A stretch of DNA of 43,673 nucleotides, taken from Oligoflexales bacterium (GTDB lineage Bacteria; Bdellovibrionota_B; Oligoflexia; Oligoflexales; JALZUQ01). Shown here one piece after another: positions 18,626 to 43,673 of the stretch. A program made the translations under genes and the position numbers. The stretch spans positions 1-43,673 of the forward strand of contig JALZUQ010000004.1 in NCBI GenBank assembly GCA_023301465.1. Reading direction: 5' to 3'. Position 1 is the first letter of the stretch. Every line of letters begins with the position of its first letter. The notes under the pieces were generated by a model. It saw nothing but the letters and a program-made list of their open reading frames with translations. It was not told the DNA's origin and did not search any database.

Positions 18626-21600
18626 TTATCTAATCCAAATTTGATGATGTGTGTCTTTTGTAAATGTAACGGCTTGATCATCACACTCCCACCGATTACC
18701 TTGACCTTTTATACCCCAGTGTCTCTGACCTGTTCTGAAAAAAGGGAAGTTGGTCATCGCAGCATCACCTTGATTCGCAAAAGAATTGTTAATAATAGAG
18801 ATTAATAATGCTGTATGATCTGGTAGCGAATTAAAGTTATTAGTATAAGTGGTTCTGTTTATAGAGCCTGTTCCAGCTTTATAGTATGAGGCTGTGTTAG
18901 GGTCTGTTACCCAAAAATCCATCATGCGGGGATTCCCTGATGTTTGGCAAAAATACCTTGTGTCCGTAAAATTAAAATGATTCATCAGTGCGTTTCCTGC
19001 ATGGCCCCAAGAAGTTGTTGAAGCACTTTCATTTACTCCTAAAGTGGATGAGTCTGGAAGTGGCAAGTTGGTTGTTTTTACAAGTAGAGCAGGGTTTGTG
19101 CCACCATCATGAAGGTAATTGAGAACCATTGTCCAACCACCACCTGCTGTTGTCATATCGCAGTAAGCATCAAAAGCTGCTAGCGGACCAAAACCATCAG
19201 GGTCTATCTGGTAAACTCCATCTTTTAAAGTTGGATCTGCGTCTAAATAAGATTTGCAACTTTCAGGAACTATGCTCAAGACAGTTATCTCAAATAATTC
19301 ATGAGCAATTTGTAAACTGCTATCGATTGCTGAGATGTCAATGATGGTCGCTCCTTCTTTTTCTAAGGTGGTAATATCGAGTGTGTATACACCAGCTCCA
19401 ATATGAGTTGCTACTAAGTTAGCGTCAGGAACAATCGTTTGATCGCTTGAGTTTATAGAAACATTTAGAGTTCCAGCTACGTCAAGATCATCAAGTACGG
19501 TGAAGCTGATCTGTCGAGTGGTTGCTACATTAATATTTTGATTTACGATGTTTTGTGCAAAGTTGGGCTTGCCATCGGCTGCTCCACAAGGAGTGCTAAT
19601 AATATTAGCTCGTGTTGGTACTCTTACAAGATCGACTGTAAAGCCTGAAGTTGGTGTGTTTCCATTAGCCGTATCTGTTAGCATGTTTCTTAAAACAGCC
19701 TCAGAACTATTAGTGCCTATGTATGTGCCTGAAGCATCATAAATATTATTTGCATTACCTGAGTTTGCATTTGCCCTGAAGTGAGCGTTGGAGAAAGACG
19801 CAGCTGTTAAATCATTATTCATAAAGCTTGAGCAATTTCCGGTGGTGCTGTTGCCAACAAAAGCAAGTTCTGCACCCGTACCAAAGTTGCCTGTGTATGT
19901 ATTTCCATGAACTTGACAGTCAACTGTTGAACCAGAAGAAATAGGCCAACACGTTAACACTGTCCCTGATGTACCGCCTAAAGTATTTCCATTTATTCTG
20001 AGAAGGTGATTAAAAGATGATTTCATTCCGAAAACTCGAATATGGTTAGTTGTGTTTCCAGTAATGGTGTTGTTATCAATAACTACATTTCCTTCATATG
20101 TTCTGGCATAAATACCAAATGAAGTACCTACACCGGCTTGTGTAATATTATTATCAGCAATACTTATTGGGCTGTGTCCTAAGTATTCAATTCCTCTTGT
20201 TCGAGTGCCAGTTAAGGTGTTTCGAGAGATTTGTATTTCACTTTTTTCAGTGCCTGTTATTGGGGTTTCTATCAGTATCCCAACCGTATTTGTGGTTGAA
20301 ATAATATTATTATCAATAGTAATATCTGATTCAGTGTTGTTTTCATTGACGATCACATTAATAATACTAGCTGAAAAAGCATCTGCAGATCCCTCCATGG
20401 TATTATCAAAAATATTTACTGTTGATCGTGCAGCGCCTGTAGATGTTCCGTTACCCAAAGTGATGTCTATTGCTGTGTCAGAAATACTTCCAACGACAGT
20501 GTCACTGAGAACGTTGCCATATATGTGAAAATTTGCTGTGTTATCACCGGTAGTAGCTAAAGTTATTATTTCAAACAATGATCCTTCTGTGGTGTTGTTT
20601 CGAATAATAACATTCCCACTAATATTTGCTATATTAAGTACTCTATCACAAGCTTTAAATTGATTGTTTTCGATGGTGATGTTGTCAACCTCGAGAGCAC
20701 TATGAAGACAATGACCACCATTAGTATCGTCAATGGCGATTCCTCTGATTTCTAGATCATCTGCCGAAATTGCTACTGATCTTGAACCACCACCGGCAGG
20801 GCCTATGACTGGGTGGTTGCCAACTGCAACAACTGTTCTGTTTAAGAGTTTAAGTCCAGACCCTTCACCGACAACTTTTAGGCCGTCGTGTTCCAGTGCA
20901 AGCTGGTTGTTTTGATTTGTATTGCTTCCGTCACCTTCATAGATAAATATATATTCATCTTCTTTTGCTGCAGTTTCAGCGTCATCTAAATTATCAAAAG
21001 GTGCTGTAAATCTCCCATCTCCGTTTGAAGGCTCATTATTTTGAACGAACCATACCATCTCTTGGATTTGTACAGAAACAGTAGCTGATGCTTGGTTTCC
21101 TAGAGCATCTGTTATTTTATAGGTAAAAGTATCTGTGTCGTCAGTAATACCAATAGGCGGGTTGTAAGAAAAACTACCGTCAGCAGCAATATCAACGATT
21201 CCACCTAAGGAAGTTGCAACATTTGATTCAGCTATAAGAGTAACGGGTCCATTTGTGTCGGCGGATGCATCATTCTCGCTTAGCGTGTTTAAATCAATCA
21301 TTGTACTTACTAACTGTACATTGCCAATGGCTCCATTATTTCCAGTATAGCTATCATCAACAGCAGAAGGAGCTAATGTATCTAGGTCAATATCAACAGT
21401 TGCAGCAGTGCTTGAATTACCAACTGTATCAACTCCAGTAACACTAATGGTTTCGTTACTGACATCAATACCAGAGTCAAAAGTAACAGCAACCGAATAC
21501 ACACCGCCAACGCATGCAGCAACAACAGGGTCTGATGCGATGTTTGGACTTGTGATAGAGACTGATCCAGAGTTATCGCATGTACCAGTTACAGTTGTAT

Positions 21601-22600
21601 TCGAAAGGTTTGTTCCTGCTGTAGGAGCAGTGATTGTTGGTGTAGCTGGAGCTGATATATCGACATCGATCGCGACAGTTGCAGCAGGTGATTCATTGCC
21701 GGCACTATCTTCTTGAGTAACAGACAAGCTTTCCGTGTTGCCGTCTGCACCTGTAGTCCAAGTGACAGTTGTAGAGTATGTACCGCCAGTACATGTAGTT
21801 GTCGTTGGGTTTGGAGTAATATTAGAATTGGTTATTTTTACAGTGGTTCCTGTTTCGCAGGTGCCAGATACAGTAGTAGGGTTTGTGACAGTTTGTCCTA
21901 TAGTTGGACTAGTTATGCTTGGAGCAGCTGGAGTTGAAAGGTCAATATTAATGGGATTAATGATAATTGGTGTTGAGTTATTACCTAAATCATCACTTGC
22001 TACAACAGATATGCTCTGTGATGAGCTATCCGCACTGGAATTCCATGTTATTGGAACGTTTACAGCTGTTGTTGAGGTACAAGTATAAGTTGTAGGATTA
22101 GGAGTGATTTCATTATTTGTAATAGTGATAGTAGAGCCAACTTCATCACAGGTGAGATTGATGAACGCAGCATTGCCAATAGTAGATCCCGGCATAGGGG
22201 AACTGACAACGACACTAGGGGCAGTCGTATCAATGAAAGTTGTAGCCTGCTCGACTTGTTCTCCATCTATGTTGGTGTTGATGATTTGTTCTGTGTTAAC
22301 TCCACTGTTAAAAGTAATGTTTTGCTCGTAAGTACTAGATGCTGGGCATACAAATTCAGTAGGGTTTGGAGTGATCTCAGAATTTTCTAGAACAATTTGT
22401 GTGCCTGCTTGACAACTGCCGTTAATAACTAAGGTGCCTGCAAAAAAATTTTTAACTTCGGATGTAAACCCGATACTAGCTCCTTGAGTCACCTCATCAA
22501 AGCTAGGAATGCTATCGACATTAATCTCAGGAGAGTCTTGAGAGCCAATTTTCTCTGGATCACCAAGTAAATTAAAGTCTTTTCCGCAAGATTGCAGCAT
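18626..22600 (-). CDS. Giant Ig-like/beta-helix protein with fibrinogen-like C-terminus
   Basis: 1324 residues from ATG 22598-22600 (AGAAGAAG upstream); the frame is open to 22762 but that part is antisense to a LysM gene. Domains in order: four Ig-like repeats of about 93 residues (37-409), each with the same C..G..I.ITN..ITPNP...C pattern; a cadherin-like/VCBS-like unit (411-520, SYNPPIGITDDTDTFTYKI); a right-handed beta-helix (about 525-990, repeated IxxNxITxN turns); and a fibrinogen/intelectin-like C-terminal domain (last ~215 residues: CKSYLDADPTLKDGVYQI, AYCDMTTAGGGWTMV, ending with HHQIWIR). Such modules serve binding to other cells or glycans. A Cys at residue 5 (LQSCGKD) resembles the first residue of a lipoprotein, but no hydrophobic signal precedes it. 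Confidence 0.88.
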   Translation of the reverse strand: MLQSCGKDFNLLGDPEKIGSQDSPEINVDSIPSFDEVTQGASIGFTSEVKNFFAGTLVINGSCQAGTQIVLENSEITPNPTEFVCPASSTYEQNITFNSGVNTEQIINTNIDGEQVEQATTFIDTTAPSVVVSSPMPGSTIGNAAFINLTCDEVGSTITITNNEITPNPTTYTCTSTTAVNVPITWNSSADSSSQSISVVASDDLGNNSTPIIINPINIDLSTPAAPSITSPTIGQTVTNPTTVSGTCETGTTVKITNSNITPNPTTTTCTGGTYSTTVTWTTGADGNTESLSVTQEDSAGNESPAATVAIDVDISAPATPTITAPTAGTNLSNTTVTGTCDNSGSVSITSPNIASDPVVAACVGGVYSVAVTFDSGIDVSNETISVTGVDTVGNSSTAATVDIDLDTLAPSAVDDSYTGNNGAIGNVQLVSTMIDLNTLSENDASADTNGPVTLIAESNVATSLGGIVDIAADGSFSYNPPIGITDDTDTFTYKITDALGNQASATVSVQIQEMVWFVQNNEPSNGDGRFTAPFDNLDDAETAAKEDEYIFIYEGDGSNTNQNNQLALEHDGLKVVGEGSGLKLLNRTVVAVGNHPVIGPAGGGSRSVAISADDLEIRGIAIDDTNGGHCLHSALEVDNITIENNQFKACDRVLNIANISGNVIIRNNTTEGSLFEIITLATTGDNTANFHIYGNVLSDTVVGSISDTAIDITLGNGTSTGAARSTVNIFDNTMEGSADAFSASIINVIVNENNTESDITIDNNIISTTNTVGILIETPITGTEKSEIQISRNTLTGTRTRGIEYLGHSPISIADNNITQAGVGTSFGIYARTYEGNVVIDNNTITGNTTNHIRVFGMKSSFNHLLRINGNTLGGTSGTVLTCWPISSGSTVDCQVHGNTYTGNFGTGAELAFVGNSTTGNCSSFMNNDLTAASFSNAHFRANANSGNANNIYDASGTYIGTNSSEAVLRNMLTDTANGNTPTSGFTVDLVRVPTRANIISTPCGAADGKPNFAQNIVNQNINVATTRQISFTVLDDLDVAGTLNVSINSSDQTIVPDANLVATHIGAGVYTLDITTLEKEGATIIDISAIDSSLQIAHELFEITVLSIVPESCKSYLDADPTLKDGVYQIDPDGFGPLAAFDAYCDMTTAGGGWTMVLNYLHDGGTNPALLVKTTNLPLPDSSTLGVNESASTTSWGHAGNALMNHFNFTDTRYFCQTSGNPRMMDFWVTDPNTASYYKAGTGSINRTTYTNNFNSLPDHTALLISIINNSFANQGDAAMTNFPFFRTGQRHWGIKGQGNRWECDDQAVTFTKDTHHQIWIR

Positions 22601-22675
22601 GATGCTTCTTCTGTAAATATAGATTCGGAACGATCTTTTTTGCAGCATACTTATCATCCAGAGGTGATGAGTAGT

Positions 22676-23173
22676 GTGAAAAAGCCTTTTATTTTTCAAG
22701 AGAAAGTCTATGCAGAGCACGTATCTCCAAGCCAGAAGCATCAGGTAGCACAACTCGTACATAAATTAAAACGAAGAGGTGCTAAAGGAAAAATAATGAA
22801 GAAGCTTGCATTGAAACAGACAGAAATAGCTACTCATACACCAAAAATTATAAAGAGTTATTCTAATAAAATTAAAGTAATAACGAAAAAAGCCCCTAAA
22901 AAATCAAGCCAATTCATCGCTAGTAAGTTCAATAAAAAAACATTCAAAGTTGTTCGTAGTTACGCAGCTAAGAGTCCGCAGCAGTATACCGTAAAGCGTG
23001 GAGACACTCTAAAAAGTATTTCTTCAATGGTGTACGGAACAGATCTGCTATGGGAAACCATATACAAGATCAATAAAAAAACGATTGGAGATGACCCTGA
23101 TCAATTAAAAATGGGGCTTTCTATTAATACGGGGAGTAGTCTCACCAAACAAAATATGGGTCTTGCCCATTAA
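22676..23173 (+). CDS. LysM-domain protein
   Basis: 165 residues from the GTG at 22676, which has GAGGTG ten bases upstream; ATG 22667 abuts that ribosome site and an upstream TTG (22592) lies antisense in the coding part of the giant gene, so the start is uncertain. The N-terminal 100 residues are strongly basic and helix- or linker-like (LVHKLKRRGAKGKIMKKLALKQ, AKSPQQ). A LysM domain fills the C-terminal third (YTVKRGDTLKSISSMVYGTDLLWETIYKINK). LysM binds peptidoglycan or chitin-type glycans. No signal peptide is seen with any of the starts. It is divergent from the giant surface gene and ends at a bidirectional terminator shared with groL. Confidence 0.65.
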   Translation: MKKPFIFQEKVYAEHVSPSQKHQVAQLVHKLKRRGAKGKIMKKLALKQTEIATHTPKIIKSYSNKIKVITKKAPKKSSQFIASKFNKKTFKVVRSYAAKSPQQYTVKRGDTLKSISSMVYGTDLLWETIYKINKKTIGDDPDQLKMGLSINTGSSLTKQNMGLAH

Positions 23174-27807: not shown

Positions 27808-28221
27808 ATGAGTATGATGAAAGAATTTAAAGATTTTGCGATTAAAGGTAATGCAGTTGATATGGCTGTTGGTTTAGTCATCGGTGCTGCTTTTGGCAAG
27901 ATCATTAGTACATTGGTATCAAAAGTGATTATGCCTCCAGTGGGACTGTTAATGGGTGGCGTAGACTTTTCTAGTTTAAAGCATATTCTACAAGCTGCAG
28001 AAGGCGATGTCGCTGAAGTAGCAATCTCATATGGTGAGTTCTTTAACGTAATGATTGACTTTGTCATCATCGCTTTTAGTATCTTCATGGTTGTTAGAAT
28101 GATCAACAAACTGAAGAAGGCTCCAGCTCCAGCTGACCCAACAGAAAAAGAGTGTTCTCATTGCCTATCTAAAGTGCCAATTAAGGCGACTAAATGCATG
28201 CATTGCACTTCGTCGTTATAA
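27808..28221 (+). CDS. mscL: Large-conductance mechanosensitive channel MscL with C-terminal zinc ribbon
   Basis: 137 residues. The N-terminal signature [20 protein letters not shown] (7-26) and pore helix to about residue 44, a periplasmic loop (45-75) and the second helix ([19 protein letters not shown], 78-96) are canonical for MscL, the pore that opens when the membrane is stretched by hypo-osmotic shock. Instead of the usual cytoplasmic helix bundle, the tail has C116-x2-C119 and C130-x2-C133 ([18 protein letters not shown]), a zinc-ribbon seen in some MscL subfamilies. GAAGGAGAAGACAC lies before the ATG (the second ATG at 27817 is possible). Confidence 0.95.
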
Positions 28222-28283
28222 TACCTCTTTAATATCAATGGCTTAGAATTCTAAGGATATTTTATAGAATTCTATTAAAAAGC

Positions 28284-28312
28284 TTGACATTGAATAGAAT
28301 ATGTTATAGAAT
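28284..28312 (+). promoter_or_regulatory. Strong sigma-70-type promoter for the protease/repeat operon
   Basis: A perfect TTGACA (28284-28289) and TAGAAT (28307-28312, five of six) are separated by 17 bases. The transcription start is predicted near 28319. Two palindromes (cttagaattctaag and tagaattcta) lie just upstream. Confidence 0.88.
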
Positions 28313-28352
28313 AGGGTTAGGGCATTCATATTGCTCTGACCCTATTCCTTTT
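28310..28352 (+). terminator. Hairpin terminator overlapping the operon promoter
   Basis: aatagggttagggc (28310-28323) pairs over 14 bp with gctctgaccctatt (28333-28346), two G-U pairs, nine-base loop, followed by CCTTTTC. Complete in transcripts from mscL, its left arm starts inside the -10 box and is only half transcribed when RNA begins at the promoter (about 28319). It should stop read-through from upstream and spare the new transcript. Confidence 0.7.
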
Positions 28353-28380: not shown

Positions 28381-29340
28381 ATGTTGTGTCGTATTATCAC
28401 TATTGCTGTATTCGCTATTTTATTTCAAGCCTGTGGCGAAGGATCTCAATCTAGAGAGATCATCTACCAACCAAACCCAACTCAAATTGAAACCCCACAA
28501 CCAGACCTTCCAGTAGAACAACGTTTAGTTTCTTTAGATCAATTCAAAGTAGAATGTGAAGATTCACAAAGATGTTCGGCAGAAGTAACCGTTGGAATCT
28601 TAATCGTTCAATCTGATCTTTCTTTTTGTACGGGAACCTTGATCGATGCAAACACCGTATTAACAAATCATCATTGTATTCAAAAGCTTTATGAATCTGG
28701 AAAAAATTGCAGTTCACACATCGTTGTAAAAAATGCAAATGGTGACGAAGCATACTGTGAAGAAATCGTTGCTCCATTCTCACAAGACGAAGGATTCCAC
28801 GATAGTCCTAACAGTGCGGCTTTTGCAAGAGATGCTGCTCTTATCAAACTAAAACAACCTATTGCAACAGCGGTTAATATTAATCAAGACTTCCAATTTC
28901 AAAGCTCACAATCAGCTCACATACTTGCAGTAAACCCACCAAGAAGTGGCTCTTTGGTTGCAAAAATGCAAGTAAAAGACTGTGAAGCGACACAAAACAC
29001 AGCGTTTTTCCCTAGCTTTCAGGGTCAAAACTCTTCATTTATTCCTTTGTTCAACTGTAACAATCAACCAAGAGGCGGAAACTCTGGGTCAATGATTGTA
29101 GACTCACAAGGTGCTCCAATTGGATTATTTGCATGGGAATACGGTATTGCTCAAAAAGAAATCCCAAGTTTAGCAAACACTCAAAACTTCGCTCCAAATG
29201 AAAAAGTGAACTTTAATGTTGGTGTAAACTTAAATTGTTTTGACTTTAATGCATCAAATGATTCTTTAACTTGGGGTCAATGTAACAACCATAATCTTTC
29301 TGGGGTTCAGTTACTTAATATTTATGGAGGTAGATCATAA
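28381..29340 (+). CDS. Trypsin-like serine protease lipoprotein
   Basis: 319 residues from ATG 28381, with GTGGAG nine bases upstream. A longer frame from a GTG at 28366 was rejected because that GTG lies inside the ribosome site. Signal RIITIAVFAILFQACGE with the lipid Cys at 18. The body is a chymotrypsin-fold peptidase (S1 family): His98 in LTNHHCI, Asp151 in FARDAALIKL and Ser235 in RGGNSGSMIV. A Cys-rich loop set (CEDSQRC, SFC, HHC, NC, YCEE) suggests disulphides. A membrane-anchored protease acting in the periplasm or outside. The stop codon overlaps the start of the next gene (TAATG), so the two are coupled. Fully active triad by inspection. Confidence 0.93.
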   Translation: MLCRIITIAVFAILFQACGEGSQSREIIYQPNPTQIETPQPDLPVEQRLVSLDQFKVECEDSQRCSAEVTVGILIVQSDLSFCTGTLIDANTVLTNHHCIQKLYESGKNCSSHIVVKNANGDEAYCEEIVAPFSQDEGFHDSPNSAAFARDAALIKLKQPIATAVNINQDFQFQSSQSAHILAVNPPRSGSLVAKMQVKDCEATQNTAFFPSFQGQNSSFIPLFNCNNQPRGGNSGSMIVDSQGAPIGLFAWEYGIAQKEIPSLANTQNFAPNEKVNFNVGVNLNCFDFNASNDSLTWGQCNNHNLSGVQLLNIYGGRS

Positions 29341-29867
29341 TGAACGCAGCTTCTCTTTGGTCTCAAATAGTTATATTACTAGTAGTGGCTCTTTTTGGAA
29401 CTCAGTTAAATGCACGAGGATTTGATATTGCTTCGTCAGAGAATGAAACTCCAGAATATAAAACATTGATTAAAAAACTTATTAAATACGAAAAAATCAA
29501 ACAAAATAGTTCAGATGTTGGATATGAATTATGTGTCAAGCACACAAAACAAACAAAAAAATGCAAAAAGAACTCAACGATTGGATATGGACTTTGTGTT
29601 GAAAAAACAGGCGAAATCGAAGGCTGTAAACCGGCTTCTTCATTAGGGTATGGCTTGTGTGTTTTTGTAACAGGTCACCACAGCTTATGTCATAGTGAAA
29701 GTACAGTTGGTTATGGGTTATGTGTGTCTAAGACTGGTTCATATGCGTTTTGCAACCCGAATGCTAGTTTAGACGAAGCTATCTGCGTCGCAAATAAAAA
29801 TAACATTGAAGCATGTGGTGAAAAAATTGAAAATATATCTGAAGAAAAATCTCTAAAGAATTCTTAA
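29340..29867 (+). CDS. Secreted protein with five 21-residue two-cysteine repeats
   Basis: 175 residues. Signal peptide (SLWSQIVILLVVALFGTQLNA), then a Lys/Glu helix to about residue 57. Five repeats follow (58-78, 79-99, 100-120, 121-141, 142-162), consensus S-x-x-GYGLCV-x-x-TG-x4-C-x3, with Cys at 65/75, 86/96, 107/117, 128/138 and 149/159, exactly 21 apart. A charged tail ends the protein. I recognise no family. Ten Cys in five C-x9-C units suggest a disulphide-knotted periplasmic or secreted rod. It is translationally coupled to the trypsin-like protease upstream (1-base overlap), so it may be its partner, substrate or inhibitor (inference). Confidence 0.85.
   Translation: MNAASLWSQIVILLVVALFGTQLNARGFDIASSENETPEYKTLIKKLIKYEKIKQNSSDVGYELCVKHTKQTKKCKKNSTIGYGLCVEKTGEIEGCKPASSLGYGLCVFVTGHHSLCHSESTVGYGLCVSKTGSYAFCNPNASLDEAICVANKNNIEACGEKIENISEEKSLKNS
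29511..29825 (+). repeat. Five 63-bp coding repeats (21 residues each)
   Basis: Each unit encodes about S-x-x-GYGLCV-x-x-TG-x4-C-x3. The Gly and Leu codons differ from unit to unit (GGA/GGG/GGT and CTT/TTG/TTA), so the repeats are old and the protein pattern has been kept by selection. Confidence 0.9.
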
Positions 29868-31274: not shown

Positions 31275-31365
31275 AGCTAGTTATGAATTGGTGAGTTGCC
31301 TTTTTGTGATTTCACTAAAAAAAGATAACTCCACTCCGATACTTTTAATGAGTAGGAGAATTATC

Positions 31366-34300
31366 ATGCGATTTACACAGCTTACAACATTATCTTTATT
31401 TATAGCTCTGGGCTTTGGCTGCTCTGGTGGCGACAAAAGAAGTAATTCCGACGGTGGAAGCGGTTCAAGTGGAGGATCTACTGGAGGTGGAACGACAGGT
31501 GGTAGCACTGGTGGAACTTTGGAAGAACCAATCGATGATGATGAAGTTGTCACGCTTGAAACAGGGGCAACTGCATCGGAGCAGACTCTTATTTTTGAAA
31601 GTTCAGGAAATAAATCTGCTGGTAGGCAGTTAACAGAGTACTTATTAGTTGTGAGAGCGTCTGAGAGTTCTTGTGTTCGATTAAAATTTTCTTCTGACAA
31701 CACTGATGATGAAGCTTCAAAATCCGATACTGATAATATTTCTGGAGCAGATCAATCTTGTGCACCTGCTGAGCCTGCAACTGAGGCGGCTTCTGCTTTA
31801 AGTCTCACAGATTTTCAAAAAATGCCAAAAGCAGGAAATAACCTTGGTTTTAATTTAGTGAATGATTCTTTGTGTGATGCAAGGATTTTTCGTATGGAAT
31901 CAGAAAATAATTCAAATTCAATCAAAACAAAAACAGCTAGACTTGCTTTTAAACAACCGGTAACCATTGCGGGTTCAACTCAATATGTCCGTATTTGGGT
32001 AGATGAAGAGATTAAACGGATTACATGTGATGCAAACGGAATGGTGGACCATGATATACTTCCATTTGCACCTTTATGGATAAAAAGCCCACTCTATGCG
32101 AATACTTATGATCAGTTTACAAACGCACATTTATCAGCATTAGCCTCAAATGTTGCTTCTTCATATACAACATTAAGTCAAGCCTATGGAGAAGTCAGTG
32201 ATGTCGATGGTAATGATGGGGTTGATGTTTTTATTTCACCTGATGTAAATAGAACAAAGCTATTCGGTTTTAGAAATCCTAGATTTAATAATATTGAGCC
32301 ACAAAACATTTTTAAACCGGAAGACTTAGCAGCTTTTAGTTCTGAGGATAATCCAATGGGAAATGAAGGTGAAATTATTTATATGTGGGCACCTGATACT
32401 GCCGCATTATATAAAACAGAAGAGTTTATTAGTTCTAGCTCTTTGACATCAAACTACGCCAGAGGTTTTATTGGGTTTCAGTTGTCTAGTTTATATTTTG
32501 CAAAGGAACGTTATTTAAACTCAAAAGGAACGATACCAAATGGCTGGTTAAGAAATGCAGTAGGTTACTTATTTGCTGATTATGTTGGTGGTAATGACTA
32601 TGGGTTTTTTCCTAAATCATATTATTTGTCATCTCAGTCTCATAGAGTTTCTTTAACAGACTTTACTTCTAGTGCTGGTAATGATGAGTTTGATTCACTT
32701 GTATATGAACAAGAAGGTTTGCAGCTCATGTTCGGTTGGTATCTTCATACAAGGATTTGCGGGCAAACTCTTGAGCCTTGTGCACAATTATACGATTTGA
32801 TCAGTTCTGAGGGTGGGAGTGATGATATTGCAGCAATTGAAGCTTTGACTGGAAAAAGCTTTAATGAACTACTGGATAACTTTGGTGTTTCTATAGGTGC
32901 TGAACTTGCTGATGATCCTAGTATTGTAAGAGCATTTTGGGATGTTTCAGATATTTCTTCATTACCAGAAAAACCTTTTGACTTACCAAAGGCTGATTTT
33001 ATTAATGCATCTCTACCAACCAAATTTGTAGATAGTGCTTTAGATGGTAGTTCGCATCCTGTGATTGATATACAAAGTATTGCAGGGCCATTTACAAGCA
33101 GGCATATGGAGCTTTTTCAACCTGTATATCCTGATAATGAACTTGACCTAGAACTGGCAAAAAACTCAGTAACGTACATATTATTAACCGGACTTATTGA
33201 TGACCAAAATAAGTTGAAAGCCTTTCTAGGGAATGATTTAAATGTTACGATTCTCCCACTTGGCGAAAGGTCTACGGCATCGTTAAAGGCTGATGGAGCC
33301 AGAAGAACTAGGTTTGTACATAATGAAAAAGTTGGTGAAAACACGATACTTGATACAAGACCTGTAAACTTAACATCAATGAAATCTTCTTTCTTTGACA
33401 ACCCAAATATTGGTGGGAATCAAGATTTCTTCAAGTATCCTCTTGAAATTCATTATAAAGATCAAGAATACCCAGAATTAAACTCCACAAAAGGTACGGC
33501 AGTCACGGAATCTCGTGAGTTGTGGATAGTAGGAGAAATTGAAAATGGTACTGTTGAGGGAGATCATACAGTCGGTGATACAGACTCATATGTCATAGAA
33601 GTAAATCCGTGCCTAGACTCAACAGATGCAACGTGTCAGACAAAAGACCACTATTTATATATACAGTACACAGGAAGAAAGTCTGAAAAAAAACTAGATC
33701 CAATGTTCCTTGTAGGTAATACAGATATATCTACTTATAGAGGAGCTCAAATTTTTGGAGATGTGCAAACATTTGCTCCAGTGACATATGAAGCAGAAGT
33801 TGCACCCGTAGAATCAACGGCTGATTATTTTTTGCTTTGCCCGAACTCAAGCTTATTTCCTCCTTTAGCTGCTGGGAAGTGTGCGACCGGAGGTAGTGTT
33901 AAAGCTGGAGATAAAGATCAGTTTTTATATGACGCAGATAGTTATATCTTATCAAATGGCCGGTTTGGCGATACTATTGATAACTTTCTTTATTCTAGCC
34001 CAAAGGGTTTTCCATTTACAACAGCTTCAAACTTTGTCACTAATGAGAGTGAATTTAGGTCACTAAGAAGTTCGTTAAATGAATTCACTGATTATGAAGT
34101 AATGAGGCAGTTTTATAGTTTTACTTATAAACCTTTACAGCCATATGACTATAAATTTTATTTATTTGATTATGACCGTAACATTGTAGACTTACTAAGT
34201 ACTGATAGATTACCTATTGAAGTAGATAACCTAGAAGAAGCGATAGAATTGAAGTCTCAATTGACAGATTTTGTAAATGATGGAGCAAACCCGGCAGAGG

Positions 34301-35091
34301 AACCTGCGGAGTTTATTGCGTTATGTGAAGCATTTGAAGTGACGGGTTGTGAACAACCTTTTAGCAATGCTGCACAAATCCAAAATTCGATGATTTCTTT
34401 CTTTAACAACTCTTACATTGATTGTGTCTCGTCAACTTTTTGTAATATCGATACATTAAATGATGACCCACCCGGAATTATTAGTTCTTGGAATATTGCT
34501 TCAATCAATGTTTCGTCTGCATCAAGATCTTGGTCTTCATATTATAAACCCTCTTCTTCTAATAAGCAGGGTATCGGTGAGTCAGTATGTGCAGGAGGTG
34601 TTTTTGATGTGAGTGCACCTCACCCTGAATGTTTTGTTAGTGGCGATGCTCCATATGTTCAAGATGGTTCTGATGTTAGAGAGCAATTTGCTACATCTGA
34701 CTTTAAAAATGATTGTTATTTCGATAGATTTGTAAATAAATGTAATTACGAATTATCAGAATTTGAAATTGCTGGTGATGAATTTTCTTTAATGCGGAAA
34801 GTTGACAGCAATCCTTTAGATTTCAGATACAACAGACAGACTGTTACAGGTGATTTTTCTACACCTAATATTCCAATGAGAAGAATTGATAATAGAGTTG
34901 GTGAAATTTCGGATAAAATGAGCGAAATCCACTCAATGTATATTAAAATTCCAGCGTCAGGCACCCACGGTTCTGGGTCGTCATTGGTGAATTTAATCCT
35001 TGGTGGTCTCGATAACTCAGAAGGACAATATCTTTTGAGAGCAAGGGTTGTTGATTTTTCAAGGGAAGCAAGTGCTGATGATCTCTACTGA
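31366..35091 (+). CDS. Giant lipoprotein, probable inactive M30-like peptidase
   Basis: 1241 residues from ATG 31366 (TAGGAG upstream); the frame is open to 31288 but this start gives a signal MRFTQLTTLSLFIALGFGC with Cys at 19. A Gly/Ser/Thr linker (25-50) follows. The domain around residues 270-520 has the layout of peptidase family M30 (DVDGNDGVDVFISPDVN, ARGFIGFQLSSLYFAKERYL, NGWLRNAVGYLFADYVGG). In M30 the two key motifs read HEFQH and WLNEG; here they are IGFQL and WLRNA, so the zinc and general-base residues are gone. The remaining 700 residues are unassigned, beta-rich, with PPC-like segments. Likely a large envelope protein, with binding rather than cleavage (inference). Confidence 0.75.
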   Translation: MRFTQLTTLSLFIALGFGCSGGDKRSNSDGGSGSSGGSTGGGTTGGSTGGTLEEPIDDDEVVTLETGATASEQTLIFESSGNKSAGRQLTEYLLVVRASESSCVRLKFSSDNTDDEASKSDTDNISGADQSCAPAEPATEAASALSLTDFQKMPKAGNNLGFNLVNDSLCDARIFRMESENNSNSIKTKTARLAFKQPVTIAGSTQYVRIWVDEEIKRITCDANGMVDHDILPFAPLWIKSPLYANTYDQFTNAHLSALASNVASSYTTLSQAYGEVSDVDGNDGVDVFISPDVNRTKLFGFRNPRFNNIEPQNIFKPEDLAAFSSEDNPMGNEGEIIYMWAPDTAALYKTEEFISSSSLTSNYARGFIGFQLSSLYFAKERYLNSKGTIPNGWLRNAVGYLFADYVGGNDYGFFPKSYYLSSQSHRVSLTDFTSSAGNDEFDSLVYEQEGLQLMFGWYLHTRICGQTLEPCAQLYDLISSEGGSDDIAAIEALTGKSFNELLDNFGVSIGAELADDPSIVRAFWDVSDISSLPEKPFDLPKADFINASLPTKFVDSALDGSSHPVIDIQSIAGPFTSRHMELFQPVYPDNELDLELAKNSVTYILLTGLIDDQNKLKAFLGNDLNVTILPLGERSTASLKADGARRTRFVHNEKVGENTILDTRPVNLTSMKSSFFDNPNIGGNQDFFKYPLEIHYKDQEYPELNSTKGTAVTESRELWIVGEIENGTVEGDHTVGDTDSYVIEVNPCLDSTDATCQTKDHYLYIQYTGRKSEKKLDPMFLVGNTDISTYRGAQIFGDVQTFAPVTYEAEVAPVESTADYFLLCPNSSLFPPLAAGKCATGGSVKAGDKDQFLYDADSYILSNGRFGDTIDNFLYSSPKGFPFTTASNFVTNESEFRSLRSSLNEFTDYEVMRQFYSFTYKPLQPYDYKFYLFDYDRNIVDLLSTDRLPIEVDNLEEAIELKSQLTDFVNDGANPAEEPAEFIALCEAFEVTGCEQPFSNAAQIQNSMISFFNNSYIDCVSSTFCNIDTLNDDPPGIISSWNIASINVSSASRSWSSYYKPSSSNKQGIGESVCAGGVFDVSAPHPECFVSGDAPYVQDGSDVREQFATSDFKNDCYFDRFVNKCNYELSEFEIAGDEFSLMRKVDSNPLDFRYNRQTVTGDFSTPNIPMRRIDNRVGEISDKMSEIHSMYIKIPASGTHGSGSSLVNLILGGLDNSEGQYLLRARVVDFSREASADDLY

Positions 35092-41196: not shown

Positions 41197-43673
41197 ATGT
41201 ATAAGAGCTTAAATGTATTGAAGTGTGTGTGCTTTATCTCTTTAATATCCATATTTGGGTGTGGTGATGGACAAAATATAGATCGCCGATCTTTTAATGA
41301 TGCAGAATCTCATCAAATTGTAAAAGCAAAACGTAATGCAACAGAGTCTTTTGAAATTCATCAATCATCTTCTTCTGAGGGTGAAAAGTATGAAGTTGGT
41401 ATTAAAAGCTCTGCACTTGATAAAGAGTTTTTACTTCAAGCATCGCTTATTAATAATTCAGGAGTCGTACCTCAGTGGAACGGTCTTAAGAGTAGGGTTG
41501 TTGCTTTTAAATTAAAAGACAACAAGGTCTTTATGCTTGAAGCAACTGCGGGTCATGAGATTAGTGGTAATATCCCAAAAAATATTATTTTAGCTTCCTT
41601 TCCTATTATCCGTGAAGAAAAAGGAACGATATTCTTTGATTTTAACCAAGGAATGAAAAAGGTCTTTGTAGAAGCTGATTGGCAAGCACAAGACTACAAA
41701 GCTGGATACCGAGCAAGTTGGAATGCAAGTGATGTTGCTGAGAGTTATTTAGAGTCTGGTCGAATTCAAAATGATAAGAATAGAATGGTACTACGTCAAA
41801 TCGCTCAGATAAAAGCTGGTTTGTCTGTTGCTCCTGTAGAAGTTAAATACTACCTGACTCCTTATGCTCCCAACAAAAACTTTAAGCCTGTTGTTTCAAG
41901 TTTATCTAATTTCGATCAGTTTGGTTTTTTTGAAGTCATGCCTCAGTTAAAGCCTGATGGGAATGAAGTCATTTATGCCACAAAATTTGATACCTCTAAG
42001 CCAATTGTTTTTGGAATATCTGCTAATGCTCCTAAAGACTATAAGCAAGCACTAAAAGACGGCGTTCTTTATTGGAATAAAATTTTAGGAAAAGAAGCCA
42101 TCAAAGTTGTAGATGCACCTAGAGGAGCGGTTACACCAGACTATGAATACAATATGGTTCAGTGGGTAAACTGGGATCAAGCTGGAATGGCTTATGCAGA
42201 TGCTCAATCTGATCCACGAACCGGTGAAATTCTTCATGCACAAGTATTCATGACGAGTGTGTTTGCTGTTTCTTCAAAAGCTAAAGCAGTAAAAGCATTG
42301 CAGTCATTAAGAGCGATAAGTCAAAAGAGTACTGCTAATCAGTTTTCTTTAGCAGGGTTTGAAAAAAACCAACTATGTGGGATGCAAGGAAATAAACTAA
42401 CTCAAGGTTTCGCAGCTGCACTTGATAAGCTTTTAGAACTTAATGCTACTGATAAAGAAATATTAAAAGTCTCTCAAGATTATGTTCGTGAAGTTGTAGC
42501 TCATGAAATAGGACACACTCTTGGGCTAAGGCATAATTTTGCGGGATCGTTAGCAACAAATATTAAATCTGCCGAAAGATCTAAAAGCTTTAATCATTAT
42601 GTTTTAAATCAAAAAGCACCTGCTGGTCTCATGGTTTCAAGCTCAGTGATGGAGTATAATGACTTTATTGAAGCTGCGATTCTTGGTGATCAACTAAAAT
42701 CTGATATTGCACCTTTCAAATACGATGAGTATGCAATCAAAACGTTGTACGAAAATAATGGTGTAGATCTATATAATGATTGGCCTCTTTTTTGTACCGA
42801 CTCACATGTTGGTGGCGGCTTTTCTTTTGGTGGTAAAAGAACTTTTACTGATTGTGAACGATTTGATTATGGTTCTAGTGTCCTAGAGCACAGGAGCGAT
42901 AAATGGAACCATGAGCTTACTATTCTTCCTAAGAAAATTCTTTGGGCCTTTGTTGAAGCTAAGTTCCCATCAGTAGGAAAAGAAAGTCGTTCATTAAGAA
43001 AAGTAGGGTTTAATGCTCAGCAAGTTGCTTCAAGCCTGCAATCTCTTCTTTCTGGATATTATGGCATGTACCGTAAAGGTAATGCGTTGTTGAGTATTGA
43101 CAGGAAATATGGATATGTCACTGATATCAATGAGGAAGTAGTCCAGGAAGATCTTGAAGACTATGTGAGAGAACAAGATAAAGCCTTAGGTGGGTTCAAG
43201 AAAGTATTTAAAAAGTTTAATTTGCATAACTACGGTTCACTTAAAAAAGAGTTCATTAGTCTCTTGTCAGACTCAAACATGACTTCTGGAGTGTCTTTGG
43301 GTGGTGAAAAGTACAAGTTTACAAATGAAGACTTAAAAATCATGAAAGCAACTGGAGAGTTGTTTTTTGATAAGATGGCCGAATACCTAATGCTATCTGA
43401 GTTAACTGTATTAAAGGGCACACCGGGTAAACTATATAGTGGTGATCATCTAGAAGATCTTGCAGAGATTATGGAAGATCGAATGCGAACTGTTTTGTTT
43501 GCTACGGATGGAGACTCAACCGAAACAATTGAGATTTTAGACACACCTGCAGCAGGTAAAAAATCTGGTAACGGTGCAGACAAGAAGGATGCAGACAAGA
43601 AGGATGCAGACAAGAAGGATGCAGACAAGAAGGATGCAGACAAGAAGGATGCAGACAAGAAGGATGCAGACAA
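41197..43673 (+). CDS. Zinc metalloprotease lipoprotein (partial, 3' end outside window)
   Basis: 825 codons with no stop before the window end. The ATG follows GGGGGGCAGCTT. Signal: YKSLNVLKCVCFISLISIFGC with the lipid Cys at about 22. The catalytic metzincin motif HEIGHTLGLRH has H436, E437, H440 and H446, with the Met-turn SSVMEYN (M485). The upstream half (IPKNIILASFPIIREE, ADWQAQDYKAGYRASWN, NAPKDYKQALKDGVLYWNKILG) and the downstream FAGS are typical of the DUF5117-type zinc metalloproteases. A C-terminal DADKK repeat runs off the edge. Surface-anchored proteolysis in the periplasm or outside (inference). Confidence 0.92.
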   Translation, partial: MYKSLNVLKCVCFISLISIFGCGDGQNIDRRSFNDAESHQIVKAKRNATESFEIHQSSSSEGEKYEVGIKSSALDKEFLLQASLINNSGVVPQWNGLKSRVVAFKLKDNKVFMLEATAGHEISGNIPKNIILASFPIIREEKGTIFFDFNQGMKKVFVEADWQAQDYKAGYRASWNASDVAESYLESGRIQNDKNRMVLRQIAQIKAGLSVAPVEVKYYLTPYAPNKNFKPVVSSLSNFDQFGFFEVMPQLKPDGNEVIYATKFDTSKPIVFGISANAPKDYKQALKDGVLYWNKILGKEAIKVVDAPRGAVTPDYEYNMVQWVNWDQAGMAYADAQSDPRTGEILHAQVFMTSVFAVSSKAKAVKALQSLRAISQKSTANQFSLAGFEKNQLCGMQGNKLTQGFAAALDKLLELNATDKEILKVSQDYVREVVAHEIGHTLGLRHNFAGSLATNIKSAERSKSFNHYVLNQKAPAGLMVSSSVMEYNDFIEAAILGDQLKSDIAPFKYDEYAIKTLYENNGVDLYNDWPLFCTDSHVGGGFSFGGKRTFTDCERFDYGSSVLEHRSDKWNHELTILPKKILWAFVEAKFPSVGKESRSLRKVGFNAQQVASSLQSLLSGYYGMYRKGNALLSIDRKYGYVTDINEEVVQEDLEDYVREQDKALGGFKKVFKKFNLHNYGSLKKEFISLLSDSNMTSGVSLGGEKYKFTNEDLKIMKATGELFFDKMAEYLMLSELTVLKGTPGKLYSGDHLEDLAEIMEDRMRTVLFATDGDSTETIEILDTPAAGKKSGNGADKKDADKKDADKKDADKKDADKKDADKKDAD
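43576..43673 (+). repeat. 15-bp in-frame tandem repeat coding DADKK
   Basis: The unit gcagacaagaaggat is repeated six times without change and then cut (eight bases) by the window end. It reads Ala-Asp-Lys-Lys-Asp in the metalloprotease frame. Near-identical units suggest recent slippage. Confidence 0.93.

Follow-up and report, generated by a model that had tools for sequence, protein, structure and literature searches.

A regular C-x9-C repeat protein encoded next to a lipoprotein serine protease in an Oligoflexales bacterium

In a 43,673-nucleotide stretch of the genome of an Oligoflexales bacterium (hereafter the window), the start codon of a gene for a very regular cysteine repeat protein overlaps the stop codon of a gene for a serine protease. 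One question then is what kind of protein carries such a repeat, and whether its position next to the protease makes the two products partners. The repeat protein, of 175 amino acids, is encoded on the plus strand at 29340-29867 and consists of a hydrophobic N-terminal segment of the export type, a short charged linker, five C-x9-C units and a tail of 15 residues.

The cysteine lattice and its units

The ten cysteines of the repeat protein are found at residues 65/75, 86/96, 107/117, 128/138 and 149/159, with none off the lattice, and thus form five C-x9-C pairs with a period of exactly 21 residues. The corresponding units extend over residues 56-160 (29505-29819, plus strand), the cysteines being residues 10 and 20 of each unit. 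Within residues 26-175, 37 positions are identical to the residue 21 places further on, whereas the best self-match at any period from 10 to 59 in 5000 shuffles of the protein was 24, so that the period-21 pattern is not a product of chance. The initial annotation described five exact 21-residue C-x9-C repeats, and this exactness holds for the spacing of the cysteines but not for the unit sequences, which share between 3 and 12 of their 21 residues. Likewise, of the consensus S-x-x-GYGLCV-x-x-TG given there, the stretch GYGLCVxxTG is retained in units 2-4, but unit 1 reads GYELCVKHTK and lacks the TG, while unit 5 reads DEAICVANKN and lacks the GYGLCV core.

Between pairs of units 76 residues are shared, and the same codon is used at 30 of these, compared with the 28.9 predicted for units unrelated at synonymous sites, given the codons that twelve large ORFs of the window use. 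Since this agreement is no higher than codon usage predicts, the five units are old copies in which selection has maintained the amino acids and not the bases, in line with the earlier suggestion that the differing synonymous codons betray a pattern under selection.

Family searches and a single relative

Searches of the repeat protein against Pfam, NCBIfam, PHROG and the sequences of the PDB returned no match of note; as had been supposed, no described family with this unit is found there, and by sequence comparison the protein is a member of an undescribed family without catalogued relatives. Profile searches relied on alignments of unit dimers and of single units, longer repeat fragments being misaligned by MAFFT. 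Among 58 genomes of the phylum just one other member was detected, in a genome of the same order (G024, contig 149, 9284-9922, minus strand). Like that of the window, this protein has an N-terminus of the export type and five pairs of cysteines (104/115, 128/138, 151/161, 174/184 and 197/207); it differs from the window protein in the x10 spacing of the first pair, the other four being x9, and in its x12 linkers, which give a period of 23. A core of the form [TS]-h-[GA]-[YWF]-[GA]-[LIY]-C is present in four of its five units. The two proteins match each other reciprocally (1.4e-4 and 1.5e-4), and in the non-cysteine columns only 1 of 20000 column permutations scores as high as the real comparison, such that the likeness extends past the cysteines. 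On this sequence evidence the second protein is a real family member with the same five-unit plan. As the linkers are 10 residues long in one protein and 12 in the other while the spacing inside the unit stays, the cysteine pair within each unit would appear to be the constrained structural object, a judgement of conservation made from the only two sequences known.

Other matches were discarded on inspection. A weak match in G014 (C32) is a frame of 34 residues with a stop, and another in G054 (C311) is a Cys/Ser/Gly-rich protein without the lattice. Two GTDB-wide scans were made with narrow peptide patterns, of which the first gave no matches and the second a sole match in Paenibacillus, to a frame antisense to a response-regulator ORF; given the narrowness of these patterns, rarity is established for the phylum only. 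The tblastn searches of plasmids and phages and the viral pattern scans were empty or gave matches at chance level. Pfam DUF3704 and Toxin_32 were matched by an artificial idealised consensus alone, and not by the real protein.

The motif itself invites comparison with the mitochondrial twin CX9C (CHCH) proteins, in which roughly 10 or more residues separate two C-x9-C motifs. These proteins share with the repeat protein the tandem arrangement of the motifs, but they are eukaryotic and contain two helical motifs each, whereas the repeat protein contains five, in Gly-alternating segments that look strand-like. A bacterial counterpart is provided by the Sel1-like proteins HcpB and HcpC of Helicobacter (PF08238), exported proteins whose tandem repeats are held together by regular disulphides; their alpha/alpha units are, however, 36-38 residues long instead of 21, and the disulphide is described as tethering one repeat to the next (PMC3851747). 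Similarly, the middle repeat region of the bacterial CagY protein is composed of tandem units with conserved cysteines that have been proposed to cross-link, although its motif is of 38-39 residues, Lys/Glu-rich and helical (PMC2581425). The common theme of tandem units and regular cysteines in an exported or oxidising compartment (PMC2581425, PMC3851747) could be taken to mean that the repeat protein is a diverged member of one of these families. We consider such an origin very unlikely, for no Pfam model of Sel1/Hcp (PF08238), the CagY repeat or CHCH matches the protein at E <= 1, neither the profile nor the idealised consensus finds a significant PDB match, and the unit length is 21-23 and not 34-39.

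The gene pair and the protease as a possible partner

The gene preceding that of the repeat protein (28381-29340, plus strand) encodes a lipoprotein with the lipobox FQAC, which is an S1 (trypsin/V8-like) serine peptidase as judged from its Pfam matches (Trypsin 2.3e-11, Trypsin_2 7.5e-10) and from its intact His, Asp and Ser motifs (LTNHHC, RDAAL and GGNSGS). The likely start is ATG 28381, with GTG 28366 also possible, and the serine motif GNSGS is more like that of S1 enzymes of the V8/glutamyl-endopeptidase type than that of trypsin. The overlap noticed at the outset is indeed present as TAATG at 29338-29342, where stop and start share 1 nt, and the repeat gene has its Shine-Dalgarno site, GGAGGT, at 29327-29332 on the plus strand, an arrangement consistent with translational coupling of protease and repeat protein.

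Upstream of the gene pair, the palindrome TAGAATTCTA occurs in two identical copies 21 nt apart (28244 and 28265, together 28244-28274), which may be an operator. They are followed on the plus strand by a sigma-70-like promoter sequence, TTGACA-17-TAGAAT (28284-28312, 11/12 matches); since promoter-like sites in the region are as numerous as in shuffles, it is only the quality of this site that argues for it. A strong hairpin followed by CTTTTCT (28309-28347, plus strand, -27.9 kcal/mol, z -4.1) lies upstream of the protease gene and overlaps the -10 element of this best promoter-like site; it is a candidate for either an mscL terminator or a leader attenuator. Farther upstream lies mscL itself (27808-28221), whose MscL channel product has an unusual C-terminal zinc-ribbon-like tail of 18 residues, and downstream, on the opposite strand, a gene for a double zinc-ribbon protein. 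Elsewhere in the window are a 1267-aa ORF (31288-35091) with no NCBIfam match and no Pfam match better than E 0.24, and an adhesin-like protein of 1378 aa (18626-22762) with Ig-like, beta-helix and fibrinogen-like GGGW domains.

The overlap of the genes, together with the repeat protein's own strong ribosome site and the export-type N-termini of both products, could indicate that the repeat protein has a role dedicated to the upstream protease, whether as inhibitor, as propeptide-like chaperone or as substrate, with repeated P1-like sites displayed on the disulphide loops of the repeat protein. A precedent is available in protease-inhibitor operons such as sspABC, with its staphostatin (PMC4490255). 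The neighbourhood of the relative nevertheless speaks against a general partnership of the kind the initial annotation envisaged. In G024 the gene that comes after the repeat gene is an ORF of 353 aa that weakly matches RelA_SpoT; on the other side, the 182 bases before the repeat gene up to the contig end, which cuts the upstream flank, contain no frame of protease length, so that the sole relative has no protease beside it in the available flanks. A search of the G024 genome for the window protease gave no match at E <= 1e-6. Moreover, the window's own genome contains a paralogue of the protease (contig 56, 35% identity, E 5e-48) that is followed after 3 bases by a different protein, of 235 aa, with weak matches to outer-membrane barrels and no cysteine repeat. 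S1 peptidases are in any case common, with 16 and 24 Pfam Trypsin matches in the two genomes, and for this reason a single adjacency to a protease says little. The pairing is thus not conserved in the one relative or at the paralogue, and as far as is visible on this thin basis of one relative it looks lineage-specific and confined to this locus. With the neighbourhood check proposed in the initial annotation carried out, a role of the repeat protein as inhibitor or substrate has lost support and now seems unlikely.

Both ends of the window's contig fall in perfect tandem arrays. The left end (1-44) lies inside an array with the 12-nt unit TCAGTCGTCGTA, and at the right end (43575-43673) the contig terminates in the same 15-nt array (coding for ADKKD) as contig 56 (9332-9430, L016), with 6.6 copies in each. 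It appears that the assembly has broken a single gene for a Met-zincin lipoprotein (HEIGHTLGLRH), leaving one half on each of the latter two contig ends. Should the halves join, the second S1 protease would lie a few kb past the right end of the window, making this a local cluster of exported proteases.

Export, disulphide formation and a proposed envelope scaffold

Whatever the relation to the protease, the export-type N-terminus is a property of both repeat proteins. In the window protein the region before the hydrophobic segment contains no Lys or Arg, which is unusual for a Sec signal, and thus the N-terminus may possibly serve as a membrane anchor. The same genome encodes five matches to Thioredoxin_4 (DsbA-like), one of which shares a 414-aa frame with a VKOR domain (G000 contig 37:361-1512). 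No match to DsbB was found in this genome, and oxidation would therefore rest on VKOR; the presence of the VKOR-thioredoxin-like fusion makes the formation of periplasmic disulphides by a VKOR-type oxidase plausible.

This bears on a further interpretation, suggested by the very regularity of the cysteines, in which the repeat protein would be a metallothionein- or copper-storage-like binder with all ten cysteines holding metal and forming no disulphides. Yet the protein has neither CxC or CxxC pairs nor a lattice of His, the x9/x10 spacing of the family is unlike that of metallothionein or Csp ligand pairs, and the genome possesses a probable periplasmic disulphide-forming fusion, all of which leaves metal binding improbable in our estimation.

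A prediction by AlphaFold from the single sequence of the repeat protein reached a pLDDT of 34-35 and thus provides no fold model. In the average over nine units, columns 5-11 alternate between large hydrophobic and small residues in a strand-like manner, and the moment of columns 15-21 is helix-like; for columns 4-13 the hydrophobic moment is 0.22 at 170 degrees (strand angles) vs 0.05 at 100 degrees. These column averages are only a hint, and the unit may be an alpha-hairpin or a strand-turn-helix.

On balance we lean, with modest confidence, towards an exported and oxidatively folded tandem repeat of five disulphide-stapled units, acting as a binding scaffold in the cell envelope. The hydrophobic N-terminus would carry the protein over the inner membrane, and in the periplasm the cysteine at position 10 of a unit would most likely pair with the one at position 20. 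The five stapled modules might then stack into a short protease-resistant scaffold, in which the variable unit positions 1-3, 12-16, 18-19 and 21 could form a binding surface. At this locus the scaffold would be made together with the lipoprotein protease by virtue of the 1-nt overlap, whether it is a partner able to withstand this protease or a passenger in the operon. A bolder proposal is that the 21-residue unit represents a new disulphide-stapled solenoid fold unlike Sel1/TPR or CHCH, built from the strand-like GYGLCV, a turn and the second cysteine, and serving the serine proteases of the envelope as a protease-proof inhibitor or docking rod, an idea we hold to be a long shot.

If the repeat protein were a partner of the protease, it would represent a new way of controlling an envelope protease. 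The scaffold reading aside, bacterial repeat proteins stapled by disulphides form a small set, to which the locus contributes an undescribed cysteine repeat of great regularity, and the two sequences, with the same spacing within the unit and different linkers between units, lead to the clear prediction of one disulphide per unit.
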